Virus record (IMG/VR): IMGVR_UViG_3300049032_000020
Location: 1 to 43,377 of that record
Length of the DNA: 43,377 nt
Strand: one strand, 5' to 3'
Origin: a virus
Positions 1 through 43,377 of the stretch are shown here, in pieces. The position numbers were made by a program, and so were the translations under genes. Each line of letters starts with the position of its first letter. Position 1 is the stretch's first letter. The notes beneath the pieces were generated by a model. The model was not told where the DNA came from. It saw only the letters and a program-made list of their open reading frames with translations, and ran no database searches.

Positions 1-29
1 CGCCGCCGCTTCTACCGCCTCGTCAGGGA

Positions 30-248
30 TCACTTCATACCTCCTGCGATGTCTACCAAGCTGGCGCTGATTCCGTCTAGCCGCTGAGCATCATGTTCTG
101 GGCACCAGTACGGACCCCACCACGTTCCCGCAGGTTCAGCGCATCCCTTCTCGATGCAGACACGGCCACTCGGCTCATGGCAGACATGCCCGCGCTCAGT
201 GCGACACATCGGGTGAGCCGTGTCTTCTACCGCCTCGTCAGGGATCAC
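30..248 (-). CDS. small Cys-rich MIPDEAVE-type protein (unit copy 2)
   Basis: A 72-residue protein starting at GTG 248. It begins MIPDEAVEDTA, the start cassette shared with several neighbours, then carries C/H pairs (CRTERGHVCH, CIEKGC, CPEH) that suggest one or two zinc sites. The start overlaps the stop of the 245-496 gene by 4 nt, and its own stop overlaps the next GTG start (GTGA), so translation is probably coupled. An identical copy lies at 42596-42814. The function is unknown. The family is typical of actinobacteriophage accessory operons. Confidence 0.75.
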   Translation of the reverse strand: MIPDEAVEDTAHPMCRTERGHVCHEPSGRVCIEKGCAEPAGTWWGPYWCPEHDAQRLDGISASLVDIAGGMK

Positions 249-496
249 AGCGAGTCTCCTAAATCGTGGGAGCGCAATCTTTCCCGTTCCGCTCGGACCT
301 TCGCGTCAGCCTCAGCGCGTTCTTTCGGATGTTCCGCGTCTAAATGGTCGGCCGCTTCCATCTCGCAGTCATAAAAGCTGCCTCTTCCTGTTCGGTACTC
401 GCACAGGCCGCAATAGAACCGGTACTGGTCAATGATGGATTCCGCGAACAGTTCAGCCTCCATGTAGGGAAGCGTTGTCATCTTCGTCACGTCCAT
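245..496 (-). CDS. small C2H2-like zinc-finger protein (unit copy 2)
   Basis: An 83-residue protein. The ATG at 496 is preceded by GGGAG at good spacing, which favours it over the internal ATG at 481. Residues CGLC about 30 in, followed by a Cys and then HLDAEH, form a plausible CxxC...HxxxH zinc finger, and a charged helical tail follows. It overlaps its upstream neighbour by 10 nt and its downstream neighbour by 4 nt. It is identical to 42811-43062. The function is unknown; nucleic-acid binding is an inference. Confidence 0.75.
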   Translation of the reverse strand: MDVTKMTTLPYMEAELFAESIIDQYRFYCGLCEYRTGRGSFYDCEMEAADHLDAEHPKERAEADAKVRAERERLRSHDLGDSL

Positions 497-717
497 GCCT
501 TCTCCCGCTCGTCCTGCGTTGTGCGCGTCATCACGGCTTCCAAAGGTTTCACCTCGTAGGCTGCGCCGATCATTTCCTCGGATGGCCTGTTTGATATAAG
601 GTGCGGGGCAGCGAACTCTAAGGCCGCCCGTGCGTACTCTCGCGCTTCGGGCACGCTCACACCGCCGCGGGTATGGATACCGAGCGCCGCCGCTTCTACC
701 GCCTCGTCAGGGATCAC
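487..717 (-). CDS. MIPDEAVEAAA-family small protein (unit copy 2)
   Basis: A 76-residue protein starting at GTG 717. It has the MIPDEAVEAAA N-terminus and a second family motif, YARAALEFAAPHL, near residue 30. Its first 36 bp (685-720) are repeated exactly at 1-36 and 42567-42602, and this repeat bounds the 684-bp duplication. GTGA overlap with the 714-842 gene indicates coupled translation. The same protein is encoded at 43053-43283. The function is unknown. Confidence 0.75.
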   Translation of the reverse strand: MIPDEAVEAAALGIHTRGGVSVPEAREYARAALEFAAPHLISNRPSEEMIGAAYEVKPLEAVMTRTTQDEREKAWT

Positions 718-842
718 TTCTTTCTGCTTTCAAAGGTGCCGGGGATGTACTCGGGAGCGCTGTCGTACTTGTGCGCGGGGCAGTCGTGGTGGATGTAGAG
801 CCCCCATGTGCCGGGCTTGATCTTGCAGTTGTCCTCGTTCAT
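714..842 (-). CDS. small hypothetical protein (42 aa)
   Basis: A 42-residue gene, ATG 842 to TGA 714. Its ATG overlaps the stop of the upstream ribbon-helix-helix gene (ATGA) and its stop overlaps the next GTG (GTGA). That unbroken chain of overlaps is the main reason to accept it. The protein begins MNEDNCKIKPGTWG and contains HHDCPAH, so it may bind a metal. I do not recognise the family. Confidence 0.7.
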   Translation of the reverse strand: MNEDNCKIKPGTWGLYIHHDCPAHKYDSAPEYIPGTFESRKK

Positions 843-2967: not shown

Positions 2968-2980
2968 CGCTACGTGAAGG

Positions 2981-3010
2981 CCCCTAGATCCGCGAGATCT
3001 AGGGGTTTTT
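2981..3010 (+). terminator. Rho-independent terminator downstream of the attP tRNA core
   Basis: A perfect 10-bp stem (CCCCTAGATC/GATCTAGGGG) with a 5-nt loop is followed by TTTTT on the plus strand. It is oriented like the tRNA core and begins 13 bases after it. It could therefore end transcription of the tRNA gene rebuilt at the prophage junction. Confidence 0.8.
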
Positions 3011-3092
3011 CTGTACCGCCCTTTGTATCGAATCGGGCCCCTTGAAGCGACCAGAAATAGCCTAACGTTTCGCCTATGGCCCTTTTCCGCGT

Positions 3093-9317: not shown

Positions 9318-10021
9318 CGAGTCCAGTACACCGACACGTTCAGCGATGCGCCGCCCGTCGTTGGACCCCAGTCAGTCGGGCCAGTGTTCAACACAACCAG
9401 TCGGCAAGTAATCTCCTGCCCCCCGCTAAGGCCCGTCACTAACGTCTGCTTCAGAGGGAACGTTGATGCGTCCGCGCCGGCGAGTGCCTGCTGAAACCTG
9501 CGAGGCCCCCACGTCGGACCCTGCCCATTAGGCCGGTCAATGTAGACACGCCCGCCGATAGATGAGTTCGCGGCAGTGGGGTTCATGATGCCCACTGAGC
9601 CGAAGCCGGAAACGAATCCCTGCGTGAATCCTGTGGGAACTGTCAGCGTGAACGTGCAGACGGTTTGCTCAGCGAGGGTTACGTTCAGCCCAGCGGTAGT
9701 GTCATTCACGCCCACGTCAAACTTGATTGGGTTCGTGAGCGCGTCGTTCTCGATACTTCCCGGCTGAAGAAATAGCGGCCCGTTGATTGATAGGGACCCG
9801 TTGAACTCGGAGTCGCCGTTGACCTCCAAAGGCCCGTTGATGACGCCCTCGCCGTTGATGTTGACGTAGCCCTCGAAGTCCGTGCCGCCGTCGCGGGGCA
9901 TGATGCCTGTGCGCCCGAAGACGTTGGCTGCCCGAAGTTCGTTCAGTTCCCGGCGAAGGGTCTGTAACTCGCGCACCATCCAGTCTTCACCACGCGGCTG
10001 AAACTGCCCAGGCTGGCCCAT
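9314..10021 (-). CDS. minor tail protein
   Basis: A 235-residue protein. The N-terminus has a short coiled coil (WMVRELQTLRRELNELRAAN), then short NINGEG/VNGDSEFNGSLSINGP beta repeats, and a C-terminal beta domain. This layout fits a fibre or fibre-adaptor subunit. TAATG overlap with 10021-11100 couples their translation. The exact role is not recognised. Confidence 0.75.
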   Translation of the reverse strand: MGQPGQFQPRGEDWMVRELQTLRRELNELRAANVFGRTGIMPRDGGTDFEGYVNINGEGVINGPLEVNGDSEFNGSLSINGPLFLQPGSIENDALTNPIKFDVGVNDTTAGLNVTLAEQTVCTFTLTVPTGFTQGFVSGFGSVGIMNPTAANSSIGGRVYIDRPNGQGPTWGPRRFQQALAGADASTFPLKQTLVTGLSGGQEITCRLVVLNTGPTDWGPTTGGASLNVSVYWTR

Positions 10022-41020: not shown

Positions 41021-42346
41021 TCATTGTTCGAGTAGCCTACTGAGGCTGGACATGGCTGCGGTGAGTTGGGGCGCGTTGCCTTTGGATCGGTATTTGCGGG
41101 TCATGGCTATGGCGCTGTGGCCGACGATTTCCTGCGTAATGGCCTCATGTACGCCGGCCTCATACATTAGGTCAACGACCGTATGCCGCGCACCATGCAG
41201 TACCACGTCGGTAGGCAGGCCCGCCTCGACTAAGAGCTTGTTCCATTCTTTTGTGGCACGATCAGGGTCCCAGGGCTTGCCGTCGCGGGTGAAGACCAAG
41301 CCCTCGGACTGGTCGCCCATCTGTAGCTTCAGGATGGACTTCAATGGCTCTACAAGGGGGATAACACGCCAGCCTGCCGACGACTTAGGACGCGTGAGAT
41401 ATAGAGTCCCACCAAGCTCTCTGTACTCCCAGTCAGATGGGGCCTTCGATATGTCTGTGATGCGCTGCAACTGCCAACTGAGGTCGAGCTGATCTGTGAC
41501 CCTATCCGCCTCCAGCCCAAGGATCTCCCCGCGCCGCGCCCCCGTCAAAAGATAGCAAGCCCAGAGCGGCCCGTCCTGCCTCGTTGCAAGGTGCTGGAGT
41601 AGCCTGATGGCTTGCTCTGCGGTTAGCGCCTTTTGGAGGCTCTTACGGGCGCGTGGCCTATCCACAAGCTCGCAGACGTTGACGGGTATTTTGCCTTCGC
41701 GGTGGGCGACTTTGAGTGCGGTTGAGAGCGAGTTGTGGGCGAGTAGCGTGTAGGTGCTGGACAGCATGACGGTATCGGCCGGCAGGTTCTTTTGCCCGCG
41801 TAGAGCCGGATCCTTGGGCGTGTTCTGCATGACCTTGTGTAGGGTGCGGACGTCTTCGGCGGTGAGTTTGTCGAGGCGCTTCTTACCTAACAGAGGAACA
41901 ATATAGCCATCGACAACAGTCCGATACCCCGCCAACGTTTTGGGCCGGATCTTTTGGGGTGCGATGTCGTTGATCCAATGATCCATCCACTTACCCACGG
42001 TGATGCTGTTGGTAGCGATGTTGCCGTGTTTCTCTAGCTCTTTTTTGGCGTTGCGCAGTTCAGCAACCACAGCGCCTTTATCGCGGCGGGCGATCACCTT
42101 CCGCCGCCTCTTCCCGTCCGTGGATGGCAGTTCGAGGGACGCGCACCACATCCCGTCAGCCCGCTGATAAACCCCGCCTTCTCCTTTTGGCCGGCGCTGC
42201 TTGGCCTGTTTTTTGCGGCGGGTGAGTTCGTTGAACTCGTCCAGGAGCCACACTGACGGTTCTTCCCCACGCGCCTCCAGTTTTTTGAGCACGAGCCGGT
42301 CAGCTACCAGGTTCCGCTCATCCTCAGCCGTCCATTTAGCGACCAC
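41021..42346 (-). CDS. int: tyrosine integrase
   Basis: A 441-residue protein if started at GTG 42346 (AAGGAAG lies 12 nt upstream); it overlaps the previous gene by 11 nt. An N-terminal AP2-like arm-binding domain (GEGGVYQRADGMWCASLEL) is followed by a SAM-like core-binding domain (TVGKWMDHWINDIAP). The catalytic domain has R in LLTGARRGEIL, K in PKSSAGWRVIPL, then H384, R387 (HGARH), H410 (IVGHS) and Y419 (TRKYRS). It would recombine the tRNA-Met attP with the host gene. It is the last gene of the small-protein operon, about 3 kb from attP. Confidence 0.9.
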   Translation of the reverse strand: MVAKWTAEDERNLVADRLVLKKLEARGEEPSVWLLDEFNELTRRKKQAKQRRPKGEGGVYQRADGMWCASLELPSTDGKRRRKVIARRDKGAVVAELRNAKKELEKHGNIATNSITVGKWMDHWINDIAPQKIRPKTLAGYRTVVDGYIVPLLGKKRLDKLTAEDVRTLHKVMQNTPKDPALRGQKNLPADTVMLSSTYTLLAHNSLSTALKVAHREGKIPVNVCELVDRPRARKSLQKALTAEQAIRLLQHLATRQDGPLWACYLLTGARRGEILGLEADRVTDQLDLSWQLQRITDISKAPSDWEYRELGGTLYLTRPKSSAGWRVIPLVEPLKSILKLQMGDQSEGLVFTRDGKPWDPDRATKEWNKLLVEAGLPTDVVLHGARHTVVDLMYEAGVHEAITQEIVGHSAIAMTRKYRSKGNAPQLTAAMSSLSRLLEQ

Positions 42347-42599
42347 GTAGCTTTGCCACTTCCTTAGCGATGTACTCGGGCATGTCCCGCCCCTTCCACA
42401 TCTCGACCAATTCTTCCGCTGTCCACGGATCGGGTTGGGCTGCCTTGTAGTCTGGGTGGCTGCACTCTTTGCAGCACATGAGCCCGCTAGCCGCGAATGA
42501 CCTGCACTGCCCATAACCAGCGCCGCAACTCGGGCACGGGTACTTAGCCATCCACTGCGGCATCTTCGCCGCCGCTTCTACCGCCTCGTCAGGGATCAC
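42336..42599 (-). CDS. MIPDEAVEAAA-type zinc-ribbon protein next to integrase
   Basis: An 87-residue protein starting at GTG 42599 with MIPDEAVEAAAKMPQWMAKY. Here the start cassette is fused to a zinc-ribbon body (CPSCGAGYGQC, CCKECSH) and a helical tail (DPWTAEELVEMWKGRD). Its first 36 bp are the repeat at one edge of the 684-bp duplication. It overlaps int by 11 nt. Confidence 0.75.
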   Translation of the reverse strand: MIPDEAVEAAAKMPQWMAKYPCPSCGAGYGQCRSFAASGLMCCKECSHPDYKAAQPDPWTAEELVEMWKGRDMPEYIAKEVAKLRGR

Positions 42600-42814
42600 T
42601 TCATACCTCCTGCGATGTCTACCAAGCTGGCGCTGATTCCGTCTAGCCGCTGAGCATCATGTTCTGGGCACCAGTACGGACCCCACCACGTTCCCGCAGG
42701 TTCAGCGCATCCCTTCTCGATGCAGACACGGCCACTCGGCTCATGGCAGACATGCCCGCGCTCAGTGCGACACATCGGGTGAGCCGTGTCTTCTACCGCC
42801 TCGTCAGGGATCAC
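42596..42814 (-). CDS. small Cys-rich MIPDEAVE-type protein (unit copy 1)
   Basis: Identical to the 30-248 protein, including the GTG start in the repeated start sequence. In a single-copy genome this would be the gene directly before the 42336 protein. Confidence 0.75.
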   Translation of the reverse strand: MIPDEAVEDTAHPMCRTERGHVCHEPSGRVCIEKGCAEPAGTWWGPYWCPEHDAQRLDGISASLVDIAGGMK

Positions 42815-43062
42815 AGCGAGTCTCCTAAATCGTGGGAGCGCAATCTTTCCCGTTCCGCTCGGACCTTCGCGTCAGCCTCAGCGCGTTCTTTCGGATGTTC
42901 CGCGTCTAAATGGTCGGCCGCTTCCATCTCGCAGTCATAAAAGCTGCCTCTTCCTGTTCGGTACTCGCACAGGCCGCAATAGAACCGGTACTGGTCAATG
43001 ATGGATTCCGCGAACAGTTCAGCCTCCATGTAGGGAAGCGTTGTCATCTTCGTCACGTCCAT
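42811..43062 (-). CDS. small C2H2-like protein (unit copy 1)
   Basis: Identical to the 245-496 protein, with the same 4-nt and 10-nt overlaps with its neighbours. Confidence 0.75.
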   Translation of the reverse strand: MDVTKMTTLPYMEAELFAESIIDQYRFYCGLCEYRTGRGSFYDCEMEAADHLDAEHPKERAEADAKVRAERERLRSHDLGDSL

Positions 43063-43283
43063 GCCTTCTCCCGCTCGTCCTGCGTTGTGCGCGTCATCAC
43101 GGCTTCCAAAGGTTTCACCTCGTAGGCTGCGCCGATCATTTCCTCGGATGGCCTGTTTGATATAAGGTGCGGGGCAGCGAACTCTAAGGCCGCCCGTGCG
43201 TACTCTCGCGCTTCGGGCACGCTCACACCGCCGCGGGTATGGATACCGAGCGCCGCCGCTTCTACCGCCTCGTCAGGGATCAC
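43053..43283 (-). CDS. MIPDEAVEAAA-family small protein (unit copy 1)
   Basis: Identical to the 487-717 protein. Its start region (43251-43286) is the hybrid repeat at the junction of the two duplicated units, so its upstream overlap is with the stop of the copy-2 gene at 30-32 in the circle. Confidence 0.75.
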   Translation of the reverse strand: MIPDEAVEAAALGIHTRGGVSVPEAREYARAALEFAAPHLISNRPSEEMIGAAYEVKPLEAVMTRTTQDEREKAWT

Positions 43284-43377
43284 TTCATACCTCCTGCGAT
43301 GTCTACCAAGCTGGCGCTGATTCCGTCTAGCCGCTGAGCATCATGTTCTGGGCACCAGTACGGACCCCACCACGTTC

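Follow-up and report, generated by a model that had tools for sequence, protein, structure and literature searches.

How phage genomes become mosaic is an old question in which recombination at short conserved boundary sequences is set against illegitimate recombination; at most mosaic boundaries, such sequences reportedly cannot be recognized (PMC3029335). A repeat of ~50 bp between genes 67 and 68 of mycobacteriophage Island3 was read as a boundary sequence, the first case in a mycobacteriophage (PMC3029335). In cluster K mycobacteriophages, short repeats termed SAS and ESAS are tied to gene starts, the SAS being a 13-bp sequence (GGGATAGGAGCCC) located 3-7 bp upstream of the starts (PMC3203893). 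For T4-type phages, repeated intergenic elements (PeSL) were proposed to mediate modular shuffling (Arbiol 2010 and Comeau 2014, as cited in PMC4503421).

The window, i.e., the whole 43,377-nucleotide stretch analyzed here (IMG/VR virus record IMGVR_UViG_3300049032_000020), is the genome of a temperate tailed phage closed as a circle, with a host that is probably Arthrobacter-like (soil bacteria). A duplicated block was found in the leftward array of small genes that lies between attP and the tyrosine integrase gene, an array to which an Arc-like ribbon-helix-helix gene also belongs. The features of the window are as follows.

1-684, no strand: copy 1 of the tandem unit (genes A, B and C), identical to 42567-43250
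42567-43250, no strand: copy 2 of the tandem unit, identical to 1-684
43251-43377, no strand: 127-bp end overlap with 1-127 that closes the circle, probably the assembler's k-mer
1-36, minus: gene-start seam (exact repeat) that joins the stop of C to the start of A' at the hybrid junction of the two copies
685-720, minus: gene-start seam (exact repeat) at the start of gene A
42567-42602, minus: gene-start seam of gene D, adjoining the integrase; same 36-mer in relative L001
224-248, minus: start of gene C, where 25 bp of the seam match exactly; repeated at 42790-42814
487-717, minus: gene A, 76 aa, MIPDEAVEAAA family, no Pfam or PHROG match
33-1 and then 43250 to 43053 (listed as 43053-43283), minus: gene A', copy of A
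245-496, minus: gene B, 83 aa, C2H2-like Cys/His pattern; copy B' at 42811-43062
30-248, minus: gene C, 72 aa, Cys-rich; copy C' at 42596-42814
42336-42599, minus: gene D, 87 aa, seam start, Cys-rich body not common to L001
41021-42346, minus: tyrosine integrase (PHROG integrase, 5e-56; Pfam Phage_integrase)
839-991, minus: Arc-like ribbon-helix-helix gene of the array, kept in several relatives (PHROG 6506, 6.9e-12)
2919-2968, plus: attP core, 50/50 identity to the 3' part of tRNA-Met (CAT) of Arthrobacter sp. B2a2-09

The longest open reading frame of the integrase extends to 42514; its likely start is the GTG at 42346, which overlaps the end of gene D. Just past the attP core, a terminator-like hairpin followed by a T run was observed at 2979-3012. 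No tRNA or Rfam element was detected within the window, the attP core corresponding to the 3' half of a tRNA only. Cys/His patterns are abundant in the products of genes B, C and D. Genes A to D had no PHROG match at E<=0.01 and only sub-threshold Pfam matches, for B and D, and a protein search for relatives of gene D returned none.

The initial annotation had described the 684-bp unit at 1-684 as repeated at 42567-43250 and abutting its copy in the circle, and exact matching bore this out. The two copies were found to be without a difference, and the match extends further to 1-720 and 42567-43286. The last 127 bases of the record (43251-43377) are identical to its first 127, and the record therefore closes into a 43,250-bp circle where the 684-bp copies abut head to tail. 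An identical 36-bp repeat is present at four places (1-36, 685-720, 42567-42602 and 43251-43286), with no other place detected for it within 3 mismatches and 0 matches in 100 shuffles. This repeat bounds the two head-to-tail copies at 1, 685 and 42567, the ends of the ancestral unit. With the 684-bp copy set aside, the circle has no exact repeats of at least 25 bp other than these 36-bp seams and the 25-bp piece at the start of gene C. Read on the minus strand, the 36-bp repeat consists of GAA, a GTG start codon and the codons for IPDEAVEAAA, and the edges of the unit are thus composed of gene starts, as had been proposed. The unit comprises three complete minus-strand genes (A, B and C), and its second copy is followed by gene D and then by the integrase. 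That three genes had been added at once in the array leading to the integrase was likewise sustained, with A, B and C all intact and the array ending at the integrase. Several genes of the array were found to open with the same cassette, (A)GTGATCCCNGACGARGCGGTNGARGCGGC, in which the TGA of the upstream gene overlaps the GTG start; this stop/start overlap, (A)GTGA, and roughly the first ten codons, IPDEAVEAAA, make up the cassette.

Like the boundary sequence of Island3, the seam of the window is short identical DNA at gene borders, of the type that joins whole modules by homologous recombination. By contrast to that of Island3, it is the 5' coding end of a gene with a stop/start overlap, and it recurs within one array and across phages, together with a three-gene tandem duplication. 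PeSLs are promoter/terminator stem-loop elements located between genes, whereas the cassette of the window is a coding start in which no hairpin was detected. Like the seam, SAS and ESAS are short repeats found where unrelated small genes start, within the non-structural half of actinophage genomes (PMC3203893). The SAS, however, lies upstream of the start, whereas the repeat of the window is mostly coding, and the SAS motif gave one match with 2 mismatches in the window compared to 1.13 expected by chance. The closest named phages are Bridgette, Bauer and Hestia of Arthrobacter, in which no comparable array was seen. Gene 37 of Bridgette, right before the integrase, is a weak match to gene A, chiefly in its IPDEA-type start, and part of the integrase gene of Hestia is 65% identical in DNA to that of the window. 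The 29-bp core of the cassette had no match within 3 mismatches in Bridgette or Hestia.

The cassette was next considered as DNA rather than as peptide. Given the codon usage of this phage, the probability that IPDEAVEAAA, if coded twice independently, would have identical codons throughout is 8e-5. Among 19 cassettes, the mean agreement was 5.84 of 9 third positions, compared to 3.82 expected and a largest value of 4.86 in 2,000 simulations, and the rare Val codon GTA was present in 13 of the 19. Agreement this far above chance indicates that the cassette DNA is either common by descent or kept for its own sake. The wobble sites still vary between phages. Most cassettes have a GTGA or ATGA overlap, and CAA or GAA precedes the start in 15 of the 27 listed. 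Some genomes of the virus records carry the cassette several times. Cassettes within one genome were not significantly more alike than those of different genomes (p = 0.14, by a permutation that leaves out the tandem copy and the record-edge duplicate), thus giving no general sign of ongoing intragenomic gene conversion. A value of p = 0.001 for homogenization within genomes had been inflated by the counting of these duplicates, and homogenization was rejected upon their removal. No RNA hairpin or stable structure was detected in the seam (z above 0). The degenerate cassette pattern had no exact match in 206 genomes of the host genus Arthrobacter, and in the searches made the cassette was thus met in virus records only. 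The predicted structure of the cassette family is helical and of low confidence (pLDDT 73, pTM 0.43). Some cassette relatives matched phrog_17425 (function unknown), and a literature search for the cassette peptide gave nothing relevant.

The same attP neighborhood with a related integrase was found in G001 (the same as L001), G002, G025, G030, G031 and G032. Integrase identity to that of the window is 62-78% over the five intact integrases and 81% for G001, in which only an N-terminal fragment is present. The arrays between attP and integrase differ among these relatives, with attP directly adjoining the integrase in G002 and no array between them. Pairwise alignment recovers attP and the integrase, together with the gene-start cassette, a second coding module of ~27 bp (ARAALEAAAPH), fragments of the ribbon-helix-helix gene and a small number of other common genes. 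Short common DNA was thus found to border unrelated modules, with the cassette seams (mostly 29-47 bp) in the arrays of all but G002 matching at 83-100%: 36 of 36 positions in L001 and 83-100% in G025, G030, G031 and G032. In L001, the exact 36-mer is at the corresponding place, right before the integrase. From this seam to the integrase, the body of the gene in L001 is no more like that of the window than shuffled sequence is (z = -0.6), and the integrase starts are 87% identical. Judged by this comparison of sequences, the last gene before the integrase is cleanly swapped relative to L001, bounded by the 36-bp gene-start seam and the integrase start. No contig of the viral collection besides L001 has the exact 33-bp seam, and the 684-bp duplication was thus seen once. 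Among isolate prophages with a related integrase (25 loci), a regular expression for IPDEA-type gene starts matched none.

Several further observations were made in these relatives. At L001:2575-4286, a partial integrase N-terminus resembling that of the window is directly followed by a different, second integrase on the other strand, an arrangement that suggests integrase replacement. In the tblastn match, the integrase frames at G030:C1:6856-8235 and G032:C1:17721-18914 include one TGA and two TAG codons, perhaps only at the alignment ends. The small proteins of the A2 family (e.g., L001:2493-2777) look modular, with an IPDEAVEAAA start, an ARAALEAAAPH middle and often an AWDEG...NPYRK tail.

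Duplications were also detected in other arrays. In G025 (L080, reverse strand 1541-2298), a ribbon-helix-helix gene and its neighbor are present twice with a period of 607 bp (151 bp at 97%), an older tandem duplication whose second copy is frameshifted and decayed. The breakpoint is near the start of the ribbon-helix-helix gene and not at an IPDEA cassette, and the cassette is thus not the sole route to duplication. G039 (L058) carries a comparable gene twice, with a period of 799 bp and 98% identity over 136 bp, where the contig end interrupts the repeat. Together, these two cases indicate that recent duplication here is not peculiar to one assembly. Elsewhere, near-identical direct repeats were noted at L063:8166-8321 and 9764-9919 and at L111:7410-7625 (96% and 99%).

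We consider it probable that homologous recombination acts between the gene-start repeats, with whole genes duplicated, deleted and swapped as a result, and that in this phage it has duplicated A, B and C. A crossover that pairs the gene starts of A (685-720) and D (1-36 of a one-copy ancestor) and takes place on sister or concatemeric phage DNA would generate A-B-C as a 684-bp tandem unit. The same recombination would also delete units and swap cassettes between phages. Since the cassette spans an upstream stop together with the start that follows it, such recombination would yield whole genes throughout and leave their neighbors intact. The initial annotation had attributed the duplication to unequal crossing over between paralogous gene starts. 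This remains the best fit, as the breakpoints are exactly the 36-bp gene-start repeat, but the data do not distinguish a homologous crossover from replication slippage over that repeat, which would give an identical product, nor do they establish exactly two copies. We infer the recombination event itself, the recombinase and that the duplicated form is common in the sampled population. The context, i.e., a variable array, cassette seams, a swap and other duplications, makes a real event likely.

The assembly bears on both the identity and the number of the copies. An end overlap of 127 bp was also present in two of nine other IMG/VR records tested and, given this recurrence, is probably the k of the assembler. 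Graphs were built at k=127 for one-, two- and three-copy circles. The one-copy circle had no branch and gave a contig of 42,693 bp; the two- and three-copy circles gave the same three edges with a branch exactly at window base 1, which accounts for the record beginning there. Both 684-bp copies are thus one graph edge printed twice, such that neither the identity of the copies nor their number (2, 3 or more) can be taken as independent evidence. The absence of visible difference noted by the initial annotation is real in the record but, in a de Bruijn assembly at k=127, counts for nothing as evidence. The duplicated and single forms differ only in the words of the junction, 90 at k=127, 18 at k=55 and none at k=33, and because the junction needs k-mers of its own at k=55 to 127, reads across it must have existed in some number. 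Short loops in the assembly graph are a known trouble for short-read assemblers, and the phage could have one copy, with the junction derived from a low-frequency chimera, made when PCR switched templates over the 36-bp repeat, or from a short graph loop walked once. Such an artefact would fit a contig that starts exactly at a graph branch and ends one k later, and at k=33, where words are shorter than the 36-bp repeat, the one-copy and two-copy forms are composed of identical k-mers. The junction k-mers at the larger k and the recent duplications in the same array of two other records argue against it, and we regard an artefact as unlikely. It is also quite unlikely that the record is one form of a polymorphic population, in which one, two or more copies are continually made at the seams, although two and three copies give one and the same k=127 graph, a one-copy admixture adds no new 127-mers, and instability is expected of 684-bp tandem repeats in a phage that recombines. 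A direct terminal repeat of a linear phage genome would place the same 684-720 bp at both record ends, as found here, yet the edges of the repeat are gene starts, and this reading is very improbable. In its simple form it was rejected, as a one-copy closure without hybrid junction would be expected and position 43250 instead runs into 1-127 and not into 685 onward.

The cassette may also be kept mainly for translation control, through coupled stop and start codons and a preferred initial coding sequence, with the duplication being incidental. The GTGA/ATGA overlap, the preferred start context and a codon choice conserved beyond usage are in line with such a role, for which the start-associated sequences of the cluster K mycobacteriophages provide a precedent (PMC3203893). 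By contrast, the seam has no stable RNA structure and its wobble sites vary between phages, and we consider translation control somewhat doubtful as the main reason for the cassette. It is compatible with homologous recombination between gene starts as the source of the duplication.

A broader proposal, plausible but advanced here tentatively, is that the cassette is a recombination seam common to a group of actinophages, by which a pool of small genes may be added, lost, duplicated and traded whole at the attP-integrase site. The array would then be integron-like yet run on ordinary homologous recombination, with the window in mid-duplication. The proposed seam can be named at this locus, recurs in one array and in several phages, and edges both a tandem duplication and a clean one-gene swap, and its geometry accounts for the intact products. 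Thus, the boundary model becomes directly testable at one locus. Identical gene starts before otherwise unrelated genes suggest how small phage genes shuffle as whole units.
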